A stretch of DNA of 64,000 nt, taken from assembly GCF_011682045.1 (NCBI RefSeq), contig NZ_VVIW01000015.1:1-64000 (forward strand). The letters run 5' to 3'. Positions 1 to 10,233 of the stretch are shown piece by piece. This DNA comes from Massilia aquatica. Lineage in GTDB: Bacteria; Pseudomonadota; Gammaproteobacteria; Burkholderiales; Burkholderiaceae_D. The first letter of the stretch is position 1. Each line of letters opens with the position of its first letter. The notes under the pieces were generated by a model that was not told the DNA's origin, did not search any database, and saw nothing but the letters and a program-made list of their open reading frames with translations. Both the position numbers and the translations under genes were made by a program.

Positions 1-63
1 GATCATTCGAACCACTTCCAGCTTCAGGCTGGGATCGAATGTCTTCCGCTTTCTTGTTGCCAT
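1..63 (-). CDS. IS3-family transposase OrfA, N-terminal fragment (cut by window start)
   Basis: Twenty-one codons are visible, beginning MATRKRKTFDPSLKLEVVR. This matches the usual start of IS3-group OrfA proteins, which begin with a short basic stretch and then the first helix of an HTH that binds the element's ends. A strong ribosome binding site (GAGGAG) sits six bases before the ATG, which fixes the start. In this family OrfA and OrfB are joined by programmed frameshifting to give the active DDE transposase; that part cannot be seen here. The gene runs off the window. Confidence 0.7.
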   Translation of the reverse strand, partial: MATRKRKTFDPSLKLEVVRMI

Positions 64-124
64 GTATTACTCCTCAGATGGTGGATTTTCCACCTATTGA
101 GGTGTCCGAGCAAATTAGACCACA
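1..124 (-). mobile_element. End of an IS3-family insertion sequence (rest lies left of the window)
   Basis: The segment carries the first codons of an IS3-type OrfA transposase reading leftward out of the window. Between that gene and about base 124 lies a short non-coding leader that, read on the minus strand, begins TGTGGTCTAATTTGCTCGG, which I take as the terminal repeat by analogy with IS3-family ends starting in TG. The neighbouring ScoMcrA-like reading frame loses its family similarity at exactly this point, which supports an insertion boundary at about 122-130. The other IS end, the second transposase frame and the target duplication are outside the window, so the exact boundary is inferred. 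Confidence 0.65.
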
Positions 125-551
125 GCACCTTGAGTACCTGACGCAAGGCGGCGTTACGTTCCGACTTGTTGAATTTCTCCTGTTTTGCTTCCAGGAGCAG
201 CATTTCGAAGTAAGCCGTAACGGTAGCGTCCACTTCTTACTGTGACCAGTCTTCGCCGATTCGGACGACGTCGAATCCGAGGCTCTGCAGTTTGGGCGCG
301 ACGGTGGCCTCGCCTCGGAAGAAATCTGCTGGTTTCAGTGGCCCCTCGCCTGGGTACTGGAATCCGAAAGCGGCTCCTACGATGGCCTTGGAATCGCAAA
401 GCTCGCCGTTTGTCGGGTTTCGAACTAGGAAATCGCGCGACTTTCCAAACCCGTAGCGGGCAAGGAATCCAGTTCGGCCGAGTGACGAGAACTCATCCAA
501 AGCACTTTGCACCGCCGATGGGCTCTGGAGGCGGGACAGGTCAGACGCCAC
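125..551 (-). pseudogene. ScoMcrA-type N-terminal head-domain protein, broken by a stop codon and an IS
   Basis: The frame opens at the ATG ending at 551 and encodes a domain typical of the N-terminal head of ScoMcrA-like modification-dependent restriction enzymes, with recognisable pieces such as RYGFGKSRDFLVRNP, CDSKAIVGAAFGFQ and GEATVAPKLQSLGFDVVR. At 237-239 the frame meets TAA, yet the same frame continues beyond it with EVDATVTAYFEMLLLEAKQE and NKSERNAALRQVLK, the expected continuation of the family. A single GAA-to-TAA change would explain the break. The frame is then cut near 125 by the IS end. No HNH nuclease or SRA domain follows, so the fragment is very probably dead. It starts 3 bp after the H-NS stop codon and may once have been co-transcribed with it. 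Confidence 0.7.
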
Positions 552-554
552 GGC

Positions 555-848
555 TTATTTCTTGATTCGGAACTGTTCCCTATCTTTGCCATCAAGCCAG
601 CGCGGCGCGCGGCCACGGCCCGTCCAAGTCTCGCCCGATTCAGGGTTCTTAAATTGCGCGGCAACTGTGCCTTTGACTTTCGTGGCTTTCGCAGTGCGCG
701 CGGAGGAGAGGTCGTCGACGGTTACGCCGTGCAGTTGCATCAGTTCCTTAATTTTCTTGATGGCGTCATCAATTTCATTTTTGCGGGCAGCTTCTGCCAA
801 CGATTGCAATTTTTCGATTTGTTCAACATACTCTGCGTAAGATGTCAT
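555..848 (-). CDS. hns: H-NS family nucleoid-associated protein
   Basis: The 97-aa product has the two-part layout of short proteobacterial H-NS proteins: an N-terminal coiled-coil oligomerisation segment (about residues 5-45, e.g. EQIEKLQSLAEAARKNEIDD) and a C-terminal DNA-binding domain with the signature GETWTGRGRAPRWL (about residues 73-86). Proteins of this family bind AT-rich, curved DNA and silence foreign genes. It sits in an accessory island, next to a broken restriction-type gene and a divergent HNH gene, so a role in silencing island genes is plausible but inferred. The start is the first ATG and the length is normal for the family. Confidence 0.9.
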   Translation of the reverse strand: MTSYAEYVEQIEKLQSLAEAARKNEIDDAIKKIKELMQLHGVTVDDLSSARTAKATKVKGTVAAQFKNPESGETWTGRGRAPRWLDGKDREQFRIKK

Positions 849-924
849 GTTTTCTCCGAAAAATTGAATGGACTTAATTCTGCAAAAGAGTATATGTGCA
901 ATTTAACATGCCAGCGCCAAACCT

Positions 925-1470
925 ATGCCAACGAAACGCCTTGAACGCCTTATGTTTGTCCAGGGCGGAAACTGCTTCTTCTGTAAATCATCGCTGGTCA
1001 AGGCCGACGCCAGTATTGAGCACCTCTTTGCCACCGCAAACGGTGGAGGCAATAATGAGGAAAACTGTGTTGTCTGCTGCAAATCGCTGAACGCAATCTT
1101 GGGGAGCATGTCGCTCAAAGAAAAAGTTCAGGTCGTCCTCAACCAGAAGGGCAACTTCAAGTGCCCAAGAGGTGTTGGCGCTGCCCAAGACGCGGCCGAC
1201 GCAGCCATAGTCAAGGCCAAGTTGCCGCCCATCGTTTCGTCGAATGAGTCTGCCAGTAAGAGTGCCAGGCCCGACAACCTCGCACTTGTTGTCGCCAATC
1301 TTAAGCTGCGCGGCAACGCTAGACCCCGTACAATTAGAACGCTGACAACCAGCATTGCCACGATTTTTCCGAACGGGATAGCCGGAGACGAAATCGCAGC
1401 GATTATTCAGAAATTGCAGTCAACGGGGACGGTCACCCTCAACGAGGGCAAGCTCTCTTACGTACTTTGA
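925..1470 (+). CDS. HNH-type zinc-binding protein with a C-terminal LOTUS-like/winged-helix tail
   Basis: The 181-aa protein begins with a compact HNH-like zinc module: GGNCFFCKSSL supplies a CxxC pair, ADASIEHLFATANGG contains the EH of the HNH core, and NNEENCVVCCKSLNA supplies the second cysteine pair and asparagines. A linker of about 60 residues follows. The last 60 residues (RPRTIRTLTTSIATIF to the end) resemble the winged-helix tail found on NYN/OST-HTH-type proteins, which usually bind RNA or nucleic acid. It could be a nuclease or a non-catalytic nucleic-acid binder. It diverges from the H-NS gene with a 76-bp gap. The fusion is my reading of the motifs; the exact substrate is unknown. 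Confidence 0.7.
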   Translation: MPTKRLERLMFVQGGNCFFCKSSLVKADASIEHLFATANGGGNNEENCVVCCKSLNAILGSMSLKEKVQVVLNQKGNFKCPRGVGAAQDAADAAIVKAKLPPIVSSNESASKSARPDNLALVVANLKLRGNARPRTIRTLTTSIATIFPNGIAGDEIAAIIQKLQSTGTVTLNEGKLSYVL

Positions 1471-1513
1471 GTCGCTGGTGTCAAGGTGGTGACCGCTTCA
1501 GGAACCAGGTTTC

Positions 1514-2743
1514 TCAGTCCGTCAACTGTCGGTTCAGAATTCTTAAAACGAAGTCGCCGCCGGTACCGCTGCCAGCAATCAACGCCCGCACATTCGCTTT
1601 CACCACGCTCTCATCCACTCCCGCATTGCCGGTCGCCGCCATCACGGCCGCGTAAGCGTCCAGCACGTCGATACCCGTAATGTCGTAACCCCAACCATTG
1701 GCGATACCACGTAGCGCTGTCATTCCGGCCGCCAGTGCAAACTCCGGCCGCTCCGCCGCATAGTCCCGCGCAGCCCGTATGAGCGTCCGCGGGTCTGACG
1801 GGCTTCGATTAGCTAGTTCGAGAGCAAGCTCAAAGAAGCCCGCATCCTTGGCTGCGGCAAACCATTTGCCTTCATTCCCCGGCTGGCTCGCCACCAGGTC
1901 ACGCAAAATAGTCTCCCGTGGCTTACCCGGGTACTTCTTCACAATGGCCTTGAATGTCGCCAGATTGGTCGTCGCGTATGTTGCCTCGACTGCATAGCGC
2001 GCGTACGCCTCATCTGCAAACCCTGAGCCCAGCAAGATTCCCTCACAGAAGGCCGCAATGGCCGTGAGAGGCGCGTTCAGCCCCTTCGAGTCCTCGGCGT
2101 AACGGATGGCCTCTGCGTGCTTGCCGGCTGCGGTCAGGGCCTTGGCGCCCCACACTCGGTTGTGCCATGACTTGTGCCGGTACTCAGACTTTGCAATCAG
2201 CTCTAACAGCTCGTCGTGACGACCAGATGCGTACAACGCGCTCAGACAAGCTGCCGTACCTTTGTAGTATCCGTATTCTCCAGTGCGTGCGCAGTGGTCC
2301 CACATTGTTTCCAGCGTCGGCGACGTATAGTCAGCCCACTTGGAAGCAATCTCCGGCGTCGCGCAAAGGTCGCCCCAAAACTCCCCGAGGTACTCGAGGT
2401 AGGGCATGTCGTCTTCCTGGAGTGCGTCCCACAGACGCTCTAGCCATTTCTCGCGCACCGCGCGGGTGACGTCGGCCCTCGCGATGATAGGGACGAGCGT
2501 TTCGATGGCGCGGTTCACTGCGCTGCCTATGCCTCCCGAGGAACTGTCGACCTGCTCAATTGCCGGCGCTAGCTTCTCCAAGAACAGCACCGCGCCTTCG
2601 GCGGCCAGGACTGGTTCCTTCTTGGCGATGGGCTTGATTTCAGTGAGCGCTTCTTTGATGCGCTGGATGGGCGTGTCGGACTTCCAGCCGAAGGCGTTGC
2701 GACGGAAGCGCGGGGCGAACTGCCATTTGTGGGGTGTGGCCAT
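1514..2743 (-). CDS. Conserved 409-aa alpha-helical repeat protein of unknown function
   Basis: I do not recognise a characterised family, though the opening (KWQFAPRFRRNAFGWKSD) and PVLAAEGAVLFLEKLAPAIE match what I recall of an uncharacterised proteobacterial family. The sequence is mostly helical, with TPR/HEAT-like helix pairs rich in Ala and Leu through residues 150-380 (for example GAKALTAAGKHAEAIRYAED). There is no signal peptide, membrane segment or obvious catalytic motif. It converges with the HNH gene (44 bp between the two stop codons). Helical-repeat proteins usually act as binding scaffolds; that is all that can be inferred. GC is intermediate between the recombinase operon and the rest of the chromosome. 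Confidence 0.75.
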   Translation of the reverse strand: MATPHKWQFAPRFRRNAFGWKSDTPIQRIKEALTEIKPIAKKEPVLAAEGAVLFLEKLAPAIEQVDSSSGGIGSAVNRAIETLVPIIARADVTRAVREKWLERLWDALQEDDMPYLEYLGEFWGDLCATPEIASKWADYTSPTLETMWDHCARTGEYGYYKGTAACLSALYASGRHDELLELIAKSEYRHKSWHNRVWGAKALTAAGKHAEAIRYAEDSKGLNAPLTAIAAFCEGILLGSGFADEAYARYAVEATYATTNLATFKAIVKKYPGKPRETILRDLVASQPGNEGKWFAAAKDAGFFELALELANRSPSDPRTLIRAARDYAAERPEFALAAGMTALRGIANGWGYDITGIDVLDAYAAVMAATGNAGVDESVVKANVRALIAGSGTGGDFVLRILNRQLTD

Positions 2744-2937
2744 TGTTCGAAAATTACCTTTGAAAATTGAGCTTTATACTCGCCTTGCGGGCATATCGTA
2801 TAAACGATTTACTTTGTTTTATGCTCGGTGGCGCCATCGACCGTCCTCGGTGCAGTGAGAAGCTCTACGATGTCCCCAATCACTTTCTCCAGGCTCTTGT
2901 TGCCGAGCGATGTGGTCAGATACTCGGGCCGCCCGGG

Positions 2938-3088
2938 GTGTTGGCGCCGACGCCAAATTGGCCCACAGCGCCGATTATGCCTGACCCTAGCACTGCCGCC
3001 GGGAGTCGCGTGGCGCCTGCGTTTGCGCGCATTCGTCTGGGTCAGCGGATTTCGGCATCATGGGTCAATCTGGTGTCGGCGCCAACAC
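2938..3088. repeat. 151-bp imperfect inverted repeat (two 50-nt arms) inside a 509-bp non-coding gap
   Basis: The gap 2744-3252 has no convincing gene. Within it the arm 2938-2987 pairs in register with 3039-3088. The outer 14 bp are perfect (GTGTTGGCGCCGAC against its complement), the inner 7 bp are perfect (CTGACCC/GGGTCAG), and the middle pairs imperfectly, with a 51-nt loop. Core-site orientation is opposite to that of integron attC sites (GTT outermost 5', AAC outermost 3'). It could be a miniature inverted-repeat element, a recombination or structured site of the neighbouring recombinase module, or a large hairpin. No target duplication is obvious. Confidence 0.7.
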
Positions 3089-3252
3089 TTGGTCCTCACT
3101 TCTCTATTTACGTCACTCACAGCAGGCATTATGGTCTTGGGAGCAACCGGAACTAATACAGCAAATTCTGATGCTGAGGCAAGCCATTCAGCATCCTGGA
3201 TTTATTGAAAAAACCTGCATTCGGTCGGGCTCAAACTCCACTGGCGACATGC

Positions 3253-3870
3253 TCACTGCACTAGGGATAAAGCATTTATCCGCTCCTCTCGTGAAATCCG
3301 CTTCAGTCGCCGTCCATCCGTATGTCGGCCTTGCTCGTATGCTAAAGCTGTGATGACGATTTTTGCGTAGAGAGCATCTCTTCTTGCTATCGTCTTCTCA
3401 ATGTTCTGGTTTAGCAGCCTAACCAATTTAATCTGAACTCTGAGCGGGCTGGCCGTTTTCGAGAGCGGTGTGGACCTAGTGATACGAATTGTAGACGCTC
3501 GTGGCAACAACGTTGGAGCATCTGGCGGGCGTGCTTTTTGTCCTAACTTTGAAAATAGGAGACCTAAGCTGTGCCTTTGAAGCTTAAGCGTAGTCAGCAA
3601 CTGTTCATTTCGAAGAATCAAGCCATCTAAGGTTTGTACTAAAGGCGTTTTGCTAGGACGTAGTGCCGAGATTTCATCCCGAATGTGCGGGTACGTACAG
3701 TCATCGCCGCTTATCAGCGTGCGCGATACACCAGCTTCTTCAGCGACGGCTGAAGAACTAAATCTAAGCTTATTGACCGCAGCCAATTTTGCCAGTCTCT
3801 CATTCTTAGGACATCCGTTGTAGACCGCCTGAATCGCGGCCCGAAGAACTTCGTTTTTTGATTGGCTCAT
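3253..3870 (-). CDS. Small HTH accessory protein of the recombinase operon (TnpC/DUF6262-like)
   Basis: This 205-aa protein is the last gene of the recombinase operon; its ATG overlaps the preceding stop by 4 bp (ATGA), implying translational coupling. Residues about 35-70 (FSSSAVAEEAGVSRTLISGD and the following segment) look like the short HTH of Tn554 TnpC/DUF6262 proteins, which accompany multi-recombinase transposons. The middle (about residues 75-105) is predicted coiled coil, and the C-terminus is basic. In Tn554, TnpC is a small auxiliary factor, not the catalyst, affecting efficiency or orientation of insertion. Assignment rests on position plus this motif. Confidence 0.65.
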   Translation of the reverse strand: MSQSKNEVLRAAIQAVYNGCPKNERLAKLAAVNKLRFSSSAVAEEAGVSRTLISGDDCTYPHIRDEISALRPSKTPLVQTLDGLILRNEQLLTTLKLQRHSLGLLFSKLGQKARPPDAPTLLPRASTIRITRSTPLSKTASPLRVQIKLVRLLNQNIEKTIARRDALYAKIVITALAYEQGRHTDGRRLKRISREERINALSLVQ

Positions 3871-6089
3871 GGAGAAACCTCATTCAAAATTTCGTCAGAG
3901 CCTATGCGCGCGGATTCGTTATCAAACATTTTTAACACGTTTTTTGCCTGCTCTAACCTTACTTGGTGGACCCTAAACCCACGAGATTGTTGTTCAGTGC
4001 TCGCTGCATTTACAACCAATGTCATTTTATGAACCCGGTTTTCCCAAAAAGGACGATGCGTCGAGTCCATGGCGAAACATCCACAGCCAGCACATAATCC
4101 GGGAGACCTTGCTGAAAAGTCTGGCGTCGTCGCATCCCACGACACAGTGTCGGTGGCGGCTCTGCATCGGGAGTGCAATGGATTCGTTTTAATTAGACAA
4201 TTTCCGTAGGAGGAGAAAAATATGCGCAAATCGTGCACCTGCACCAATTCTGTAACCTTATTCTCCAATTCGCGAAGCGACATGGTCTCTCTCCATTCCT
4301 TGCCACCAAAATACCGTTCCACTACATCCCCCATCCGACCGTACACCTTTTTACCTTGTGCCGCCTCAACGAAGAACGCAACTGATTGGGCAAAACGCAT
4401 TGACTCCGCATCGCCTCTGAGCCTACTTACAGCAGGGAAGTAAGCGGCTTCCGTAATGGCGACGCTCATGTGCTTAAAGTGCTCACTAACTGGCCTAAGC
4501 AGTGAAGTCTTGGACTCAAGAACGTATGCGGCGAACGTCTTCCGTCCTTGATGAGTCCGGATACATAGGCCTTTTGAATCCCTATATGTTTCCAAATCTT
4601 CATCATGGATGTTGGTGTCGGGCAAATGCGAAAGGTCAACTTCTGAGAAGATAAATCGCTTGGTACCTCGCAGAAGAGCGCCGGACATTATCTTCGAGAT
4701 AGACTCGGACGCCAGTGGGAGGCCTTTCTTCTGCGCAAAGCTTACAATCAGGTCGCCATTACTACCCAATTTTCGCCAAGGTCTATAGAGGCGCTCCAGT
4801 AGCATCAATGCCCTAACCGGCATAGGGAAGTAGGACGAGCCTACAGGCCTGCAGCCTAGTAACCATTCCTCGTCCCTAGGATGCGGCACGCCCTTGGATA
4901 AAATACCTTTGAAGAAAAACATTTCTACGATACCATTTTTGGAATAGCGTCGAATTACGCAATCTGGAAGGTCGTTTCCTGCAGCCCAGCCCCCCTTGGC
5001 TGAACATATTTCGCTGGCACGTAGCCCTACCATATACTGCAACGCGATGACGCTTGCGTCCCTTGCCCTCATAACCATGTTTCGGAGATTTTGTGTAGAG
5101 TCATACTCCATTTCCGCTTTCGCTGGATGACTAACCCTTTCTAATTTAGGTAGGGGTTCTCTCCACGGGAATTCGTTGTTCTCAGCCTTAGAAAACTCAA
5201 AACTTTGCAATATTTTGTTGGTCCGGTTTATCGCTCTGCTGTTACTGAGGCCAGCGGCAATTGCGTCGTTGCGACAGGTGACAAATTCGGTCTGCAGATG
5301 TAATATGTCCTTTGCTTTAAAATCAATCCAGATTAATGCTTTTTTTAAGAGCGGAAGGGCAACTTCATCTGGCAGCGGCGGAATCCTTTTTACTAAATAC
5401 TTTGAGATTTTCGAGGTAACACTACCGACCAATTTTCCTTCGAAGGGTGAGGCGAGCAGAGCCGACAATCCGCAAGACAACAAAGCCTTCTGTTGATAAA
5501 ATATATGGTAGAACGTGTTGATACGATACACCACTTGGCTGTAGCTAAATGTCTCCTCATCATCTGCATCATTCGGTACGTCGAAATCTGATGTCGCTGA
5601 CGCTCCGGTAACGAGGGCGGTATCACCGTAATCGTTAACATCGACGATGCTAGAGCCGTAGAACCTTCGACGATTGGCTAAGATGATTGGTAAGTCTAAA
5701 AGAAAGTCTGCCTGAGCCGCCGCGTCAAGCTCCGCAAAGCTTGAATAATTACAGTGAACCATCCACCTAAACAGTTCCCGCATTCCGACGCCCATAGAAA
5801 TAACACTTCCGGGTTTAAGAGATTTACCGTAGGTGCCACCATGAGAAAGCATACCCCAGATTACTACCTTGAAACATTCGAGCAGCATTGCGTTGCATTC
5901 GTGGGTTGAATACGTCCCGTCGGGCAGTTGAAATTTCCAGCCGATAGAGTACCGTTGTCCCGGAGTCTTCGTGTCCAGCCGCCACACTTCGTCCGGCCAT
6001 AAGGATATGCTCGATATCGCGAACGTCGCACGGCCAGTCTTAGGACGGGGCAACTTTTGTGCAAACTCGTCTACTTTTGTTTTCTTCAT
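3867..6089 (-). CDS. Large tyrosine recombinase (third of three, 740 aa)
   Basis: This is a tyrosine recombinase/integrase with a long N-terminal region and the catalytic domain in the middle to C-terminal part. Box I arginine is in YMVGLRASEICS, the H-x-x-R motif is in RTHQGRKTFAAYV, and the downstream histidine and nucleophile are in SEHFKHMSVAITEAAYF, so the R-H-R-H-Y set looks complete. After the catalytic domain comes a cysteine-rich tail (NCLIKTNPLHSRCRA, PGLCAGCGCFAM) that may bind zinc. At 740 aa it is much longer than ordinary phage integrases and fits the large subunits of multi-recombinase modules. It overlaps both neighbours by 4 bp. Confidence 0.85.
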   Translation of the reverse strand: MKKTKVDEFAQKLPRPKTGRATFAISSISLWPDEVWRLDTKTPGQRYSIGWKFQLPDGTYSTHECNAMLLECFKVVIWGMLSHGGTYGKSLKPGSVISMGVGMRELFRWMVHCNYSSFAELDAAAQADFLLDLPIILANRRRFYGSSIVDVNDYGDTALVTGASATSDFDVPNDADDEETFSYSQVVYRINTFYHIFYQQKALLSCGLSALLASPFEGKLVGSVTSKISKYLVKRIPPLPDEVALPLLKKALIWIDFKAKDILHLQTEFVTCRNDAIAAGLSNSRAINRTNKILQSFEFSKAENNEFPWREPLPKLERVSHPAKAEMEYDSTQNLRNMVMRARDASVIALQYMVGLRASEICSAKGGWAAGNDLPDCVIRRYSKNGIVEMFFFKGILSKGVPHPRDEEWLLGCRPVGSSYFPMPVRALMLLERLYRPWRKLGSNGDLIVSFAQKKGLPLASESISKIMSGALLRGTKRFIFSEVDLSHLPDTNIHDEDLETYRDSKGLCIRTHQGRKTFAAYVLESKTSLLRPVSEHFKHMSVAITEAAYFPAVSRLRGDAESMRFAQSVAFFVEAAQGKKVYGRMGDVVERYFGGKEWRETMSLRELENKVTELVQVHDLRIFFSSYGNCLIKTNPLHSRCRAATDTVSWDATTPDFSARSPGLCAGCGCFAMDSTHRPFWENRVHKMTLVVNAASTEQQSRGFRVHQVRLEQAKNVLKMFDNESARIGSDEILNEVSP

Positions 6090-7921
6090 TCCAATACTCC
6101 TATGGGTCCAAGGTTTGCGAGAGATGCATCGTCGAGAACCGCAGGATTAGTAAAAGATGGTATCCACTTGTTTATCAAGATTGCCATGACAGGCTCGTAC
6201 ACTACCCGCCATCGGGTTGCGTCGAGATAGAAGCGGGCGTGGCGAATCTCATCGGCTAGCTGTAGCGTTCTCGCAAGGGCATACCCAGACTCCCTGTCTA
6301 TACCTCCCAGTGGGCAGCCGGGACACTGCCCGAACGCCTGGCATAGCCTGCCTGTTTTCTCGCCCGGAATCGGAGAGTCGTATGGGTCCAAACAATTCCA
6401 CCCCGGTGTAGCTGCGTGCATGTCTGCGGTGTCCGGGCTCGCCCTGATGTCGCGGATGCCACCGGTGTCGACCCATCTTTCCTGCGTCGACATCACCTCC
6501 GAGAGGCCCTCGGTTCCTCGGCGTTTTGCACCCGGGCCGTTATAGTGCAAGTCGATGGTGCCCTCAGCTGTTTGACCGCCCGCGGCCATGACTGCTCTGA
6601 TATCGTTGCCGTTTTGTTCCCGAACGATGTCGAGTCCCGTCATCCTCAATATCTTTATGGTTGTGTACGGAAGTCCGTGGCATTTGCAGAATGTTTTAAG
6701 CACGCTATTCCACGTGTTGTCCGAGTCGTCTCCGTTATCTTGCGATGAGAAAAAACCGCGTACCGTTTGGGTGAACGTTTTAAATATGTAGATGTTGTCA
6801 GCGAAGAGCCCTGCGTGGGCTCGGATTGAAGAAGTCCACTTCTTCAAAAACTGATGCAGCTCATAGGGCGAAAAGATTTCACCGACCTGAATCGGGAAAC
6901 TTCGTTTATACGTAAGGTGAGCCCGCGGTTTTACAAACGTGTACCGTACCCGTCGCGACTCAAGTATTTCAACGAGCTCGACATTTCCCCATTTCAGCGC
7001 CCGGAGGGCGCCAGTATTTGCCGACGTGTAAACTGAATGAAGTACGACGAATGGAATAATGTCTTCTGCCCTAGGATAGAAAGCGCGAGTTATCGCGTCC
7101 TTTCCGTGGGTGTGCTGAATGGCGTCCGCTAGCGCCGGATTGATTTTTCGGATGTCGACCATACTGGGAATAGTGGCGCCAAATGTACGCTTCACCTCCC
7201 AGAGTGTAGCTTCCAGTGACGAGTATTGACCCCGGCCTCGACGAGTAAGGTCGGGAAAAATCTCGTGTCCCCCTAGAGTTTTCCATCCTGCCAACACTTG
7301 CGAGATAATCTCAATAATGGCGTCACGACAAGCTAAGATAATCCTAGTCCAATCGATATCGTCGATTACCTCCGTCTGCTTGGTTGAGCCATGCGCCCCT
7401 AAATAAAAATTCTGGGGGTAGCTCAAGTCAGCCGACATCAACTTTTTGCTTTCTTTGTTTTCAGCTAATATGTCAAGTAGAGCTTTCAGTACACCGAACT
7501 GCTTCCTTTGCGTATTTTCGCTTGAGATTTTCCCAGTAGCTGGATTTGGTGAGGCGAGGCCGTTGCGGAATGAAGTGATAAAATCTGAATCGATTTGATT
7601 TAAAATTACTGCGGTATGTTTTTTTGCCAAAATAAAGCGCGCAAAGCCGTTTACGAAATTTGTGGCGCCTGTTGCTATCGTCCTGGGCGACTCTCTCTCT
7701 TCGTTATTACACCAAGTCGCAAAGGCTTGCGTGAAATATTGCTGGGTGGCCCACCCCTCTGTGACTGCGCGAACTTTCGACAGAGCTTTCTGGAAAGCTT
7801 TTACATTTTTCGCTTTTCCTAGGTACGAGTTTAATTCTTCACGTATGACGACATTCTTGCCGCTGTCAGTGATTTCGATTCGCTGCTCTTTAGTAAGCTG
7901 CGTGTAACGTGACTTACGCAT
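6086..7921 (-). CDS. Tyrosine recombinase-like protein (second of three, 611 aa), partly degenerate active site
   Basis: The protein has the overall layout of Tn554 TnpB-like recombinases: an N-terminal SAM-like core-binding region (about 50-170) and a C-terminal catalytic fold. The active-site boxes are unusual. Where box I arginine is expected the sequence reads TSANTGALRALKWG, the H-x-x-R box appears as KILRMTGLDI with lysine in place of histidine, and the last box reads GGQTAEGTIDLHYNG with a candidate tyrosine. A cysteine cluster (CQAFGQCPGCPLGG) lies near the C-terminus. It may be a structural or regulatory partner of the two complete recombinases. It overlaps its upstream gene by 8 bp and its downstream gene by 4 bp. 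Confidence 0.8.
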   Translation of the reverse strand: MRKSRYTQLTKEQRIEITDSGKNVVIREELNSYLGKAKNVKAFQKALSKVRAVTEGWATQQYFTQAFATWCNNEERESPRTIATGATNFVNGFARFILAKKHTAVILNQIDSDFITSFRNGLASPNPATGKISSENTQRKQFGVLKALLDILAENKESKKLMSADLSYPQNFYLGAHGSTKQTEVIDDIDWTRIILACRDAIIEIISQVLAGWKTLGGHEIFPDLTRRGRGQYSSLEATLWEVKRTFGATIPSMVDIRKINPALADAIQHTHGKDAITRAFYPRAEDIIPFVVLHSVYTSANTGALRALKWGNVELVEILESRRVRYTFVKPRAHLTYKRSFPIQVGEIFSPYELHQFLKKWTSSIRAHAGLFADNIYIFKTFTQTVRGFFSSQDNGDDSDNTWNSVLKTFCKCHGLPYTTIKILRMTGLDIVREQNGNDIRAVMAAGGQTAEGTIDLHYNGPGAKRRGTEGLSEVMSTQERWVDTGGIRDIRASPDTADMHAATPGWNCLDPYDSPIPGEKTGRLCQAFGQCPGCPLGGIDRESGYALARTLQLADEIRHARFYLDATRWRVVYEPVMAILINKWIPSFTNPAVLDDASLANLGPIGVLE

Positions 7922-9233
7922 TTGGCTTCACTAATTTCAAATATCGGTCGGAAATGTCAGGTTCAAAATCGCTTGCGAGCTTTAGATATCTCTGTAGCGT
8001 AGTTTTTAAGTCGACGTGACCAAGTCGTGCTTGGATATAAAGCCATGGTTCCGGGTCGGTTTTTTTGCGCGTATAGTAGGTCCAAACGGCATATGTATGA
8101 CGCGTATCGTGATAGTTAAAAAGCGGTGTATCGACGTGGTGAACGGTCAGAACACCCGACGAATCAAACTTCTGTATTTTCTCGACTTTAGTCTCTCCAG
8201 CGCTCCGACAAGCGTTTAAAAATGCACGTTGGAGTGTCCTAACCTGAAGGGGCTTCCCGGCATGAGTACCCGCTGATAGGGGATTAATAAAAAGCGCTTG
8301 TGGTTCGTTGGACCCATTCAACGCTGTCAATATCTCTTGACTCTCGCAACGGATATAGTTTTTTATTTCCAGAATTAACCAACCCGGAAAGTCGACGCGT
8401 CGGCTTTTATTGCCTTTGCCGATGATTTTTATGTGTACGTCAACAGTATCGCTCGCTGGGTCTGCGAGACGGGCAAACTTTTTTAGCGGTAATCCGCAGA
8501 CTTCCGATATGCGCATTCCGGTTTCTAAGGAAACCTGCGTAGCAATCCGGTCGCGTGACGATTTCGGCTTAGGAATAATTTCACCAGTAACAGGAGGTGC
8601 TGAATTTTGATTAAAATCTCTTTGAGCGGTACGCTCACTCGGCAGAGGCCCTAATGCTTTCAGAATCTTTTGGGATTGCGTGGCCTGTATTACCGATACC
8701 TCTTTGTTTTCGTCTGCTGCCACTTTCAACGGTTTTCTGATGCGTGCGTTGACTGCGGTGAAATCCAATTCAGGGTCAAGCAGGGAATCGGCGGGAGGTG
8801 CTTTACGATACATCTTATTACCACGGGCCCAGACATAGAATTGACGGATGGTTGTTTTTCGTCGATTAATAGTTGCAGTTTTGTATCGTTGTCCCGTTAA
8901 AGGCGATATAGTTGCGCGCATAGCTTTATTGAACGCAGTAATGTCACTTTCAGATGCGAAAGTCCACGGAAGTCCGAACTCTTCACAGAAGCGGAACCAT
9001 TCCTTTAAATCTTCAGCGGAAGCATCTAGCGTATTTTCAACAATCTTATTTGAATTATTCTTGACGAACTTTTCGTATAAATATAGAAGGGCCGGCTCGC
9101 ATACAACTCGAGTTAGTTCGTCAACAATGATGGGAAACCTTTCTGGCAAAACCGAGCTTGCCGGTGCATGGCTGATAACCCAATATATCGAATCATCTGG
9201 TGCATGTGCTTCTGTTGAATTAAGTTCAGACAT
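7914..9233 (-). CDS. Site-specific tyrosine recombinase/integrase (first of three, 439 aa)
   Basis: This is a canonical phage-type integrase and the first gene of the recombinase operon. The N-terminal SAM-like core-binding domain spans about residues 50-150. The catalytic domain carries box I in SLETGMRISEVCGLP, the H-x-x-R motif in YHDTRHTYAVW, and the final histidine and tyrosine in LGHVDLKTTLQRYLKL, so it should be able to cut and rejoin DNA. The K-beta hairpin segment (IKIIGKGNKSRRVDFPGW) is also clear. The start is the ATG ending at 9233; the promoter presumably lies in the AT-rich gap between it and the helicase fragment. Lower GC than the chromosome to the right marks it as acquired DNA. 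Confidence 0.92.
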   Translation of the reverse strand: MSELNSTEAHAPDDSIYWVISHAPASSVLPERFPIIVDELTRVVCEPALLYLYEKFVKNNSNKIVENTLDASAEDLKEWFRFCEEFGLPWTFASESDITAFNKAMRATISPLTGQRYKTATINRRKTTIRQFYVWARGNKMYRKAPPADSLLDPELDFTAVNARIRKPLKVAADENKEVSVIQATQSQKILKALGPLPSERTAQRDFNQNSAPPVTGEIIPKPKSSRDRIATQVSLETGMRISEVCGLPLKKFARLADPASDTVDVHIKIIGKGNKSRRVDFPGWLILEIKNYIRCESQEILTALNGSNEPQALFINPLSAGTHAGKPLQVRTLQRAFLNACRSAGETKVEKIQKFDSSGVLTVHHVDTPLFNYHDTRHTYAVWTYYTRKKTDPEPWLYIQARLGHVDLKTTLQRYLKLASDFEPDISDRYLKLVKPNA

Positions 9234-9675
9234 ATTAGTAGTGTTGTCACACGGAACGGGTCAAAAAATGAATATCTTAACCCGCCGCTCGAAGAATTGC
9301 AAGTATGATAATAATGCTATATTAAACAAAACTGGTGGACTCCCTATTGCATAAAGTTTAGGTTAGCGGAATTTATATGGCCTTAATGAAGATAAAGTTA
9401 GTTCGAAACCGCCGCTGAACGTTTTTTAGAGCTATCCGCCGTAAGTCGGGCCTAATGCACACTGTAGGCCCAAGCTTTAGAGGGGTGGTTTGTGACCCTT
9501 TTGGTGGTGATTAGTGTATTATTTTGATTAATGAGTCAACCACTTGCTACGCTATTTCTTATTAAGCGAATTACGTAGGAGGCGAAGTCCTTTATGTTTT
9601 TTGCGTTGCAAGGTTTCAAAAATGGCGTCGTCGCGGCCAACACAGAGAGTGAACAGTTTTTCGTGTCGTATAACG
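9234..9675. other. AT-rich island edge between recombinase operon and helicase fragment
   Basis: No gene is convincing here. The stretch contains an inverted repeat GGGCCTA (9448-9454) / TAGGCCC (9465-9471) with a 10-nt spacer that could be an operator or recombinase arm site. Base composition shifts from AT-rich to GC-rich between about 9600 and 9680, and helicase-type protein similarity starts at about 9676-9679, so the island's junction with the chromosome is placed there. The matching left junction lies outside the window, so no direct repeat (att pair) can be checked. Confidence 0.5.
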
Positions 9676-10233
9676 CACCTGGAACGCATGCATGACGATG
9701 CACAGGTGCGCGTGGCCGACGTGGAACAGCTGGCGCGCCTCGCCTCTGGCCATGGCTCGCGCGAAACCTTTCTGGCCGAAATTACCCTCGACCCGCCCGA
9801 AGCGACCAGCGACCGCGCCGGGCCGCCCCATCTGGACGAGGATTACCTGATTCTCTCGACCATCCATTCTTCCAAAGGGCAGGAATGGAAATCGGTCCAT
9901 GTGCTCAACGTGGTCGACGGCTGCATCCCCTCGGATATGAGCACCGGCAATTCGGACGATATCGAGGAAGAGCGCCGCCTCTTGTACGTGGCCATGACGC
10001 GCGCCAAGGAGCATCTGCACCTGGTGGTGCCGAACCGGTTTTTCATCAAGCAGCAGGCGCAGATGGGCGACCGCCATGTGTATGCGGCGCGCTCGCGCTT
10101 CATCAGTCCGGCCATGCTCAAGCATTTCGAGGAATCGGTGTGGATGACGGCCGACACCCGGCAAAGCCGCAAACCCATGCCCGAGAGCGTGCGCATGCTG
10201 GTGCGCGACCGTGCCCGCAATGCCTGGAAGTAA
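9676..10233 (+). pseudogene. UvrD/Rep-type DNA helicase, C-terminal fragment left after island insertion
   Basis: From LERMHDDAQVR onward the frame is a normal superfamily 1 helicase C-terminus: DYLILSTIHSSKGQEWKSV is motif V-type sequence, and EEERRLLYVAMTRAKEHLHL is motif VI with its catalytic arginine finger. Everything N-terminal (Walker A, DEXX box and other motifs) is missing, and the residues before LERMHDD are AT-rich filler without helicase similarity. Full proteins of this kind have roughly 600-750 residues, so only the last quarter survives. The rest is either left of the window on the far side of the island or lost. The remaining 185 residues could not hydrolyse ATP alone. Confidence 0.8.

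Follow-up and report, generated by a model that had tools for sequence, protein, structure and literature searches.

Integrative elements of the GInt kind carry ginABCD, three recombinase-type genes and a small gene (Bardaji, 2017, in the accessible part of the text). Here we describe what is very probably a GInt-like element in Massilia aquatica, inserted once and site-specifically in a chromosomal gene for a UvrD-like helicase. One end of it lies at the beginning of contig NZ_VVIW01000015.1 (assembly GCF_011682045.1), whose first 64,000 nucleotides were analysed and are called the window below. The genome (7.47 Mb) is assembled in 99 contigs, and the one that begins with the window is called C6 here. 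Its GC content (guanine plus cytosine) is 50.5% at 1-9673 vs 64.7% at 9674-64000. The low-GC part holds four genes in minus-strand open reading frames (ORFs) of 439, 611, 740, and 205 aa, with overlaps of 8, 4, and 4 bp between neighbours. An earlier, sequence-only reading had placed four such overlapping ORFs at the edge of lower-GC DNA, and both the ORF coordinates and the GC content agree. Gene 1 starts 440 bp inside the junction with the helicase gene, and the remaining element genes are at 1-3252.

The interrupted helicase gene

A 229-aa ORF at 9544-10233 has a UvrD_C match in Pfam (5.4e-19). DNA identity to the full-length helicase of congeners begins only at 9674, the start of the gene's last quarter, so the first 43 codons of this ORF belong to the element. 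Where is the rest of the helicase? The sequence-only reading had suggested a search for it, and its N-terminal ~500 aa are indeed present in the same genome, on contig C14 (15963-17467), with 94% identity to the query, which is the protein of a congener. After this one, the longest matches in this genome are 33-34% identical. Therefore, the only close helicase copy found in this genome is cut. We take helicase motifs V and VI, as we name them from the sequence, to be missing from the N-terminal piece, and from this we infer that the helicase is dead.

Related genomes retain the gene. A match was found in 19 of 40 genomes, namely the fragment in M. aquatica itself, all 16 congeners, one genome of a sister genus and one from another family of the order. 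There is a single open frame of at least 697 aa in 15 of the 16 congeners, and two frames in the remaining one (G006, with a genome completeness of 48%).

The empty site could be read in 11 fetched loci (10 congeners and the sister genus) from the 18 other genomes with a match. It is uninterrupted in all 11, with the 6-bp spacer CGCACC in seven and CGCAGC in four. Where the element is present, the sequence is arm-CCATTC-TTATGCGACACG on C14 and, in the window, CGTGTCGTATAA-CGCACC-arm. Homology to the uninterrupted site, independently of the repeat search, was used to place the two ends of the element, and at the outermost position these are inverted repeats of each other in 11 of 12 bases. A match this good was reached anywhere in the 71-bp stretches by one of 200 shuffles. 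An inner TGTTCACT is also common to both ends. Both junctions fit a single 6-bp crossover. With the other half located, the site unbroken in relatives and the junctions explained by one crossover, the earlier proposal of an insertion into this gene is upheld.

In this one insertion gene 1 has the native 6 bp next to it, and the imported 6 bp are at the opposite end. This is the rule for SEs (strand-biased circularizing integrative elements), which have the gene order intA-tfp-intB-srap and in which the native 6 bp are found on the intA side and the imported 6 bp on the distal side (Idola, 2023; PMC9345347, in their accessible parts). A mechanism can be proposed along the same lines. As two active tyrosine recombinases, the products of genes 1 and 3 would bind the inverted repeats at the ends and carry out strand exchange over the 6-bp spacer, with the gene 2 product as a catalytically degenerate partner of recombinase fold and the gene 4 product as a small DNA-binding helper. 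The circular form would contribute 6 bp of its own. Once integrated, the element would have the target's CGCACC beside gene 1 and the circle's CCATTC at the far end, as in SEs. In this scheme we infer the complex of proteins, the circular form, the order in which strands are exchanged and mobility at present.

Two apparently active recombinases and a degenerate one

Pfam gives a clear Phage_integrase match for gene 1 (3.9e-15), a weak one under the cut-off for gene 3 (0.0026), the integrase SAM-like domain alone for gene 2 (7e-5) and no domain above the cut-off for gene 4. Genes 2 and 3 are counted as recombinase-type because of homology, conserved residues and, for gene 2, predicted structure. 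Residues were compared in alignments of relatives from the best 80 loci (see below), the window and one GInt-type protein, from which identical sequences and matches covering <75% of the model had been removed. In gene 1, the catalytic R, K, H, R, H, and Y are each kept in all 56 sequences. In gene 3, the catalytic set is kept in 64/64 sequences, with the Tyr in 63/64. Gene 2 is different. The Arg of its HxxR motif (R426) and four Cys are invariant (59/59), whereas the first catalytic Arg and the HxxR His are not among the columns kept in at least 93% of sequences. The next His is present in 55 of 59, and the window protein has Gln there.

The predicted structure of the gene 2 protein (mean pLDDT 77, pTM 0.60, from an alignment of 31 sequences) has XerH as its best PDB match (E 2.1e-5, TM 0.57 by target length, 11% identity), and all eight PDB matches at E <=0.001 are XerH or XerA chains. 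Gene 2 is thus predicted to encode a catalytically degenerate protein of recombinase fold. The earlier description of three large tyrosine recombinases holds for genes 1 and 3, which look active from their residues, but not for gene 2, a degenerate recombinase.

Relatives and their targets

An operon search of genome contigs gave 132 relatives among 143 stretches, and the best 80 of the 132 were kept. All four genes are present in order at 72 of these 80 loci, near-identical copies counted. Among the other eight, six are cut by the end of their contig, unlike the remaining two (L059, L092). The same four genes are found at plasmid loci of Methylomonas, Sphingobium, Sphingomonas, Ancylobacter, Variovorax, and Agrobacterium, and three of the four are annotated at a Paraburkholderia plasmid locus. 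Operon relatives occur in Massilia and many Alphaproteobacteria. The 611-aa protein has a relative in three other genomes among 399 of the order, and gene-3 profiles have relatives in two and three other genomes among 369 of the class. As a lone query, gene 2 returned 12 stretches from genome contigs, none of them confirmed, and no relative in phages.

Some relatives are cargo-free and about 6.5 kb long. Six copies (L081-L086) share an identical 6,534 bp: five are in Bradyrhizobium BTAi1 and the sixth is in B. manausense. They lie at different sites and have inverted ends with 10 of 12 bases matching. Identical copies with inverted ends at different sites indicate that such elements move. All six lie within frames whose translation to either side resembles a single parB-type protein (family judged by eye), with ENxxRxx / LHPLDQF or alike at the flanks. 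A blind search for inverted repeats in 17 related loci gave 18-24 of 26 matching bases everywhere, and the true Bradyrhizobium ends, at 20, fall within this noise. The whole contigs L071, L074, L079, and L122 are little beyond the element, which suggests several copies elsewhere too.

At the start of contig L058 (1-150), a related element breaks a recJ-like frame (by eye), the other half of which was looked for and not found. Behind gene 4 the same element carries a complete RecJ-type gene (6049-7905; DHH, DHHA1, RecJ_OB), recalling the bcp carried by SE-6283.

Is the helicase gene a shared target? The sequence-only reading had pointed to a search for the same operon and its targets in other genomes. 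The operon does recur. However, a helicase homologue was present in only two of 95 loci checked (two of them of the X type described below, some short or overlapping), on Ancylobacter pC and a Paracoccus contig, and in neither is it split. These two homologues, from two Alphaproteobacteria (L048 1109-3373, on a plasmid; L102 3111-5099), are 61-63% identical, unbroken and near the four-gene operon. The UvrD-like helicase is not a general target of the operon family, as far as can be judged from these 95 loci, some of which are on short contigs.

Weighing the assignment

The four genes were compared by profile with two references, each a single sequence: an operon of the Pseudomonas plasmid pSY153-MDR and the SE of pAQU1. 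Against pSY153-MDR, genes 1-4 scored 99.9, 99.8, 100, and 96.2%, with off-diagonal pairs at <=18.7%; against the SE they scored 97.2, 17.0, 62.7, and 68.8%. We presume pSY153 to be an IncpRBL16 plasmid with a Tn6571-type element. The GInt-type operon had no DNA match in E. coli genomes, and the stretch of pRBL16 that was read held no such operon. In the accessible texts, Tn6571 and Tn6488 are said to carry ginABCD, and GInt is described as a transposon of the Tn6571 family, with a citation of the IncpRBL16 paper. The sequence-only reading took three recombinases plus a TnpC-like protein to be an undescribed combination. This did not hold up, as GInts (ginABCD, published in 2017) share the anatomy and the GInt-type operon matches gene for gene. 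The operon type is known, namely GInt-like. The helicase target is the unmentioned part: in the literature within reach, which excluded most subscription papers and all supplements, no passage names a UvrD-like helicase among the targets of GInts or SEs.

Several observations speak against reading the element as a GInt inserted in this way. The two helicase halves sit on separate contigs and the assembly does not run through the middle. The order of strands is based on a single insertion. A direct repeat, which the sequence-only reading had led one to look for at the flanks, was not found: the best direct 10-mer matches at 7 of 10 positions, a score reached by 199 of 200 shuffles. Published GInts have imperfect direct repeats of 10-17 nt at their flanks (Bardaji, 2017). 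The degenerate gene is gene 2 here and gene 3 is complete, whereas in published GInts it is the third protein that is degenerate. The accessible part of Bardaji (2017) gives the first two proteins a catalytic core and the third no first Arg, and that of Idola (2023) describes the third as being without the Tyr; in Pfam, gene 2 of pSY153 also scores better than its gene 3 (3.7e-7 vs 8.1e-6), in agreement with Bardaji's text. Most of the operon relatives are listed as alphaproteobacterial by name, and Idola (2023), as far as accessible, saw GInts in Beta- and Gammaproteobacteria and none in Alphaproteobacteria. The four-gene operon of another type (X) in the left arm of the island also matches genes 1 and 3 (94.7 and 85.6%), and its gene 1 matches GInt-type gene 1 at 92%, so that the families can be told apart by genes 2 and 4 alone. 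Finally, the filing of the pSY153 operon as a Tn6571-type GInt depends in part on indirect naming.

Perhaps, then, the element represents a third lineage of four-gene recombinase elements, neither GInt nor SE. The low identity to GInt-type proteins (19% for gene 2, 22% for gene 3) would suit this, as would the two missing GInt features and the abundance of relatives in a class where Idola (2023) reports none. However, the profile matches are very strong for each gene, and the available text of Bardaji (2017) puts GInt families at 24-40% identity to one another and GInts in Alphaproteobacteria as well. A separate lineage is thus rather unlikely. The element is best read as a GInt-like variant, and not as a plain GInt because of the missing direct repeats and the position of the degenerate gene.

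Less probable still is that the element is an SE, or a beta/alphaproteobacterial sister of SEs. The order active-degenerate-active-small equals intA-tfp-intB-srap, the 6-bp rule and the inverted repeats are like those of SEs, and the profile matches to the pAQU1 element are one-to-one, though weak for gene 2. However, every gene matches the GInt-type operon far better, gene 3 is closer to the X type (85.6%) than to the SE (62.7%), and the SE survey, in its accessible part, saw no SE homologues in Alpha- or Betaproteobacteria (Idola, 2023). Might the GInt-type and SE proteins be related all the same? The same source, as far as available, reports no blast link between the two. In our comparison BLAST does join pSY153 and SE proteins (gene 4 at 2.9e-9, gene 3 at 3e-5), which suggests a common origin.

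That recombination between insertion sequence (IS) copies parted the helicase halves, with the element at the break by chance, is very improbable: contigs C6, C14, and C28 do all end in IS-like sequence (by eye), but both halves are bordered by the element and not by an IS, its inverted repeats match and a single 6-bp crossover fits the junctions. A later IS rearrangement within the island is possible.

What would the GInt-like reading mean more widely? According to the accessible text of Idola (2023), whether GInt recombination has a strand bias is still elusive. The mapped insertion, with its termini, 6-bp footprint and uninterrupted sites, together with the 132 related stretches, makes this question testable. 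Tentatively, and with more doubt than confidence, one could go further: GInts, SEs, and the family in the window may form one ancient class of four-gene transposons with two active recombinases in Alpha-, Beta-, and Gammaproteobacteria. Its members would share the strand-biased 6-bp mode of movement that is known from SEs alone and would integrate within conserved coding sequences (helicase, parB-like, recJ-like), some of them carrying a replacement for the broken gene, such as the RecJ-type gene in L058, comparable to bcp in SE-6283.

The rest of the island

Table 1. Features of the element and its surroundings in the window.
Feature	Position	Strand	Basis or remark
Insertion sequence end, identical to the start of contig C28	1..127		IS3-type by eye from translation
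Cargo, H-NS family protein	555..848	-	Histone_HNS 5.3e-12
Cargo, HNH endonuclease-like protein	925..1470	+	HNH_5 9e-6, just under gathering score
Cargo, 409-aa protein	1514..2743	-	Weak DUF6880 match
Gene 4 (ginD/srap/TnpC-like), small accessory protein, helix-turn-helix (HTH)-like by eye	3253..3870	-	hhalign probability 96% against GInt-type gene 4
Gene 3 (ginC/intB-like), large tyrosine recombinase with Cys-rich tail	3867..6089	-	R357 K399 H513 R516 H540 Y550
Gene 2 (ginB/tfp-like), predicted tyrosine-recombinase fold without the full catalytic set	6086..7921	-	Invariant Cys (four) close to the C-terminal end
Gene 1 (ginA/intA-like), ordinary tyrosine recombinase	7914..9233	-	Pfam and homology; R241 K273 H375 R378 H406 Y416
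Leader, element end to gene 1	9234..9661		Contains inner repeat AGTGAACA, with an inverted copy at the far end
Terminal inverted repeat, gene-1 end, CGTGTCGTATAA	9662..9673		Partner TTATGCGACACG from C14:15957, beside imported CCATTC
Crossover spacer of 6 bp, CGCACC, belonging to the target and retained on the gene-1 side	9674..9679		Comparison with empty sites
C-terminal remainder of the interrupted UvrD-like helicase gene	9680..10233	+	Pfam and comparison with congeners

The IS end shared by the window and the start of C28 explains the contig break. The left arm of the island is C14:1-15957, with 54.9% GC. It contains a decayed four-gene recombinase operon of the X type (L031, 9093-14400) and, at 136-2585, the latter part of another, both related to operons on Cupriavidus and Pseudomonas koreensis plasmids. 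X-type genes encode about 400, 500, 640, and 150 aa, and in BLAST only gene 1 meets the window operon, weakly (0.003). The idea that these left-arm operons are the true GInts was dropped, as the window family itself matches the GInt-type operon. The arm also holds KptA, two HAD_SAK_2 proteins and one HTH protein. Behind each X-type small gene on C14 comes a HAD_SAK_2 RNA-repair-like gene in the opposite orientation, and the KptA/Tpt1-type RNA 2'-phosphotransferase gene (L031, 3733-4317) shares this arm with the HAD_SAK_2 genes, possibly as RNA-repair or defence cargo.

Contig C28 (59.9 kb, 54.2% GC) begins with X-type genes 1 and 2 and the apparent start of gene 3 (by eye), followed by an IS end (L160, 1-2943). 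This operon is apparently split by the IS, and C14 begins with a sequence that resembles, by eye, the opposite end of an IS of this kind. C28 probably adjoins C14 because of the X-type operon and IS ends at the starts of both. A look-alike of the 409-aa cargo protein, with a similar N-terminus by eye, lies near the far end of C28 (58068-59201, L162). The island is a mosaic whose two arms total 25.6 kb, and it possibly exceeds 85 kb with C28 inside.

Comparison with known systems

The likeness to GInts lies in a four-gene operon at one end, with the same order, homologous products and cargo behind ginD, and in site-specific insertion with a 6-nt staggered exchange. In contrast to GInts, no imperfect direct repeats were found at the flanks of the Massilia element, its degenerate gene is the second, and its target is inside a helicase gene. 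For GInts, all four genes are described as essential, with a circular intermediate. The GInt targets named in the accessible texts are the end or start of ssb, the start of an ABC-transporter gene and the end of a ribonucleotide-reductase gene. SEs share gene roles and order, inverted-repeat ends and the placement of native and imported 6 bp, but their sequence match is much weaker and they have been reported from Gammaproteobacteria only.

Recombinase-in-trio (RIT) elements and the Gamma-Mobile-Trio (GMT) resemble the operon in having several recombinase genes side by side. RIT elements have three recombinases of similar size and no small fourth gene, whereas the products here are of 439, 611, and 740 aa and a fourth gene is present. 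GMT was a first guess. There are NCBIfam models named for it, and it was dropped in view of the GInt papers and of the lack of any match to a GMT-named model at E <=1. Tn554 is similar in its two recombinases plus a small TnpC-like protein, its 6-bp footprint and its site specificity (as described in the accessible text of Idola, 2023). In gene content it differs, as tnpA-tnpB-tnpC includes no counterpart of gene 2.

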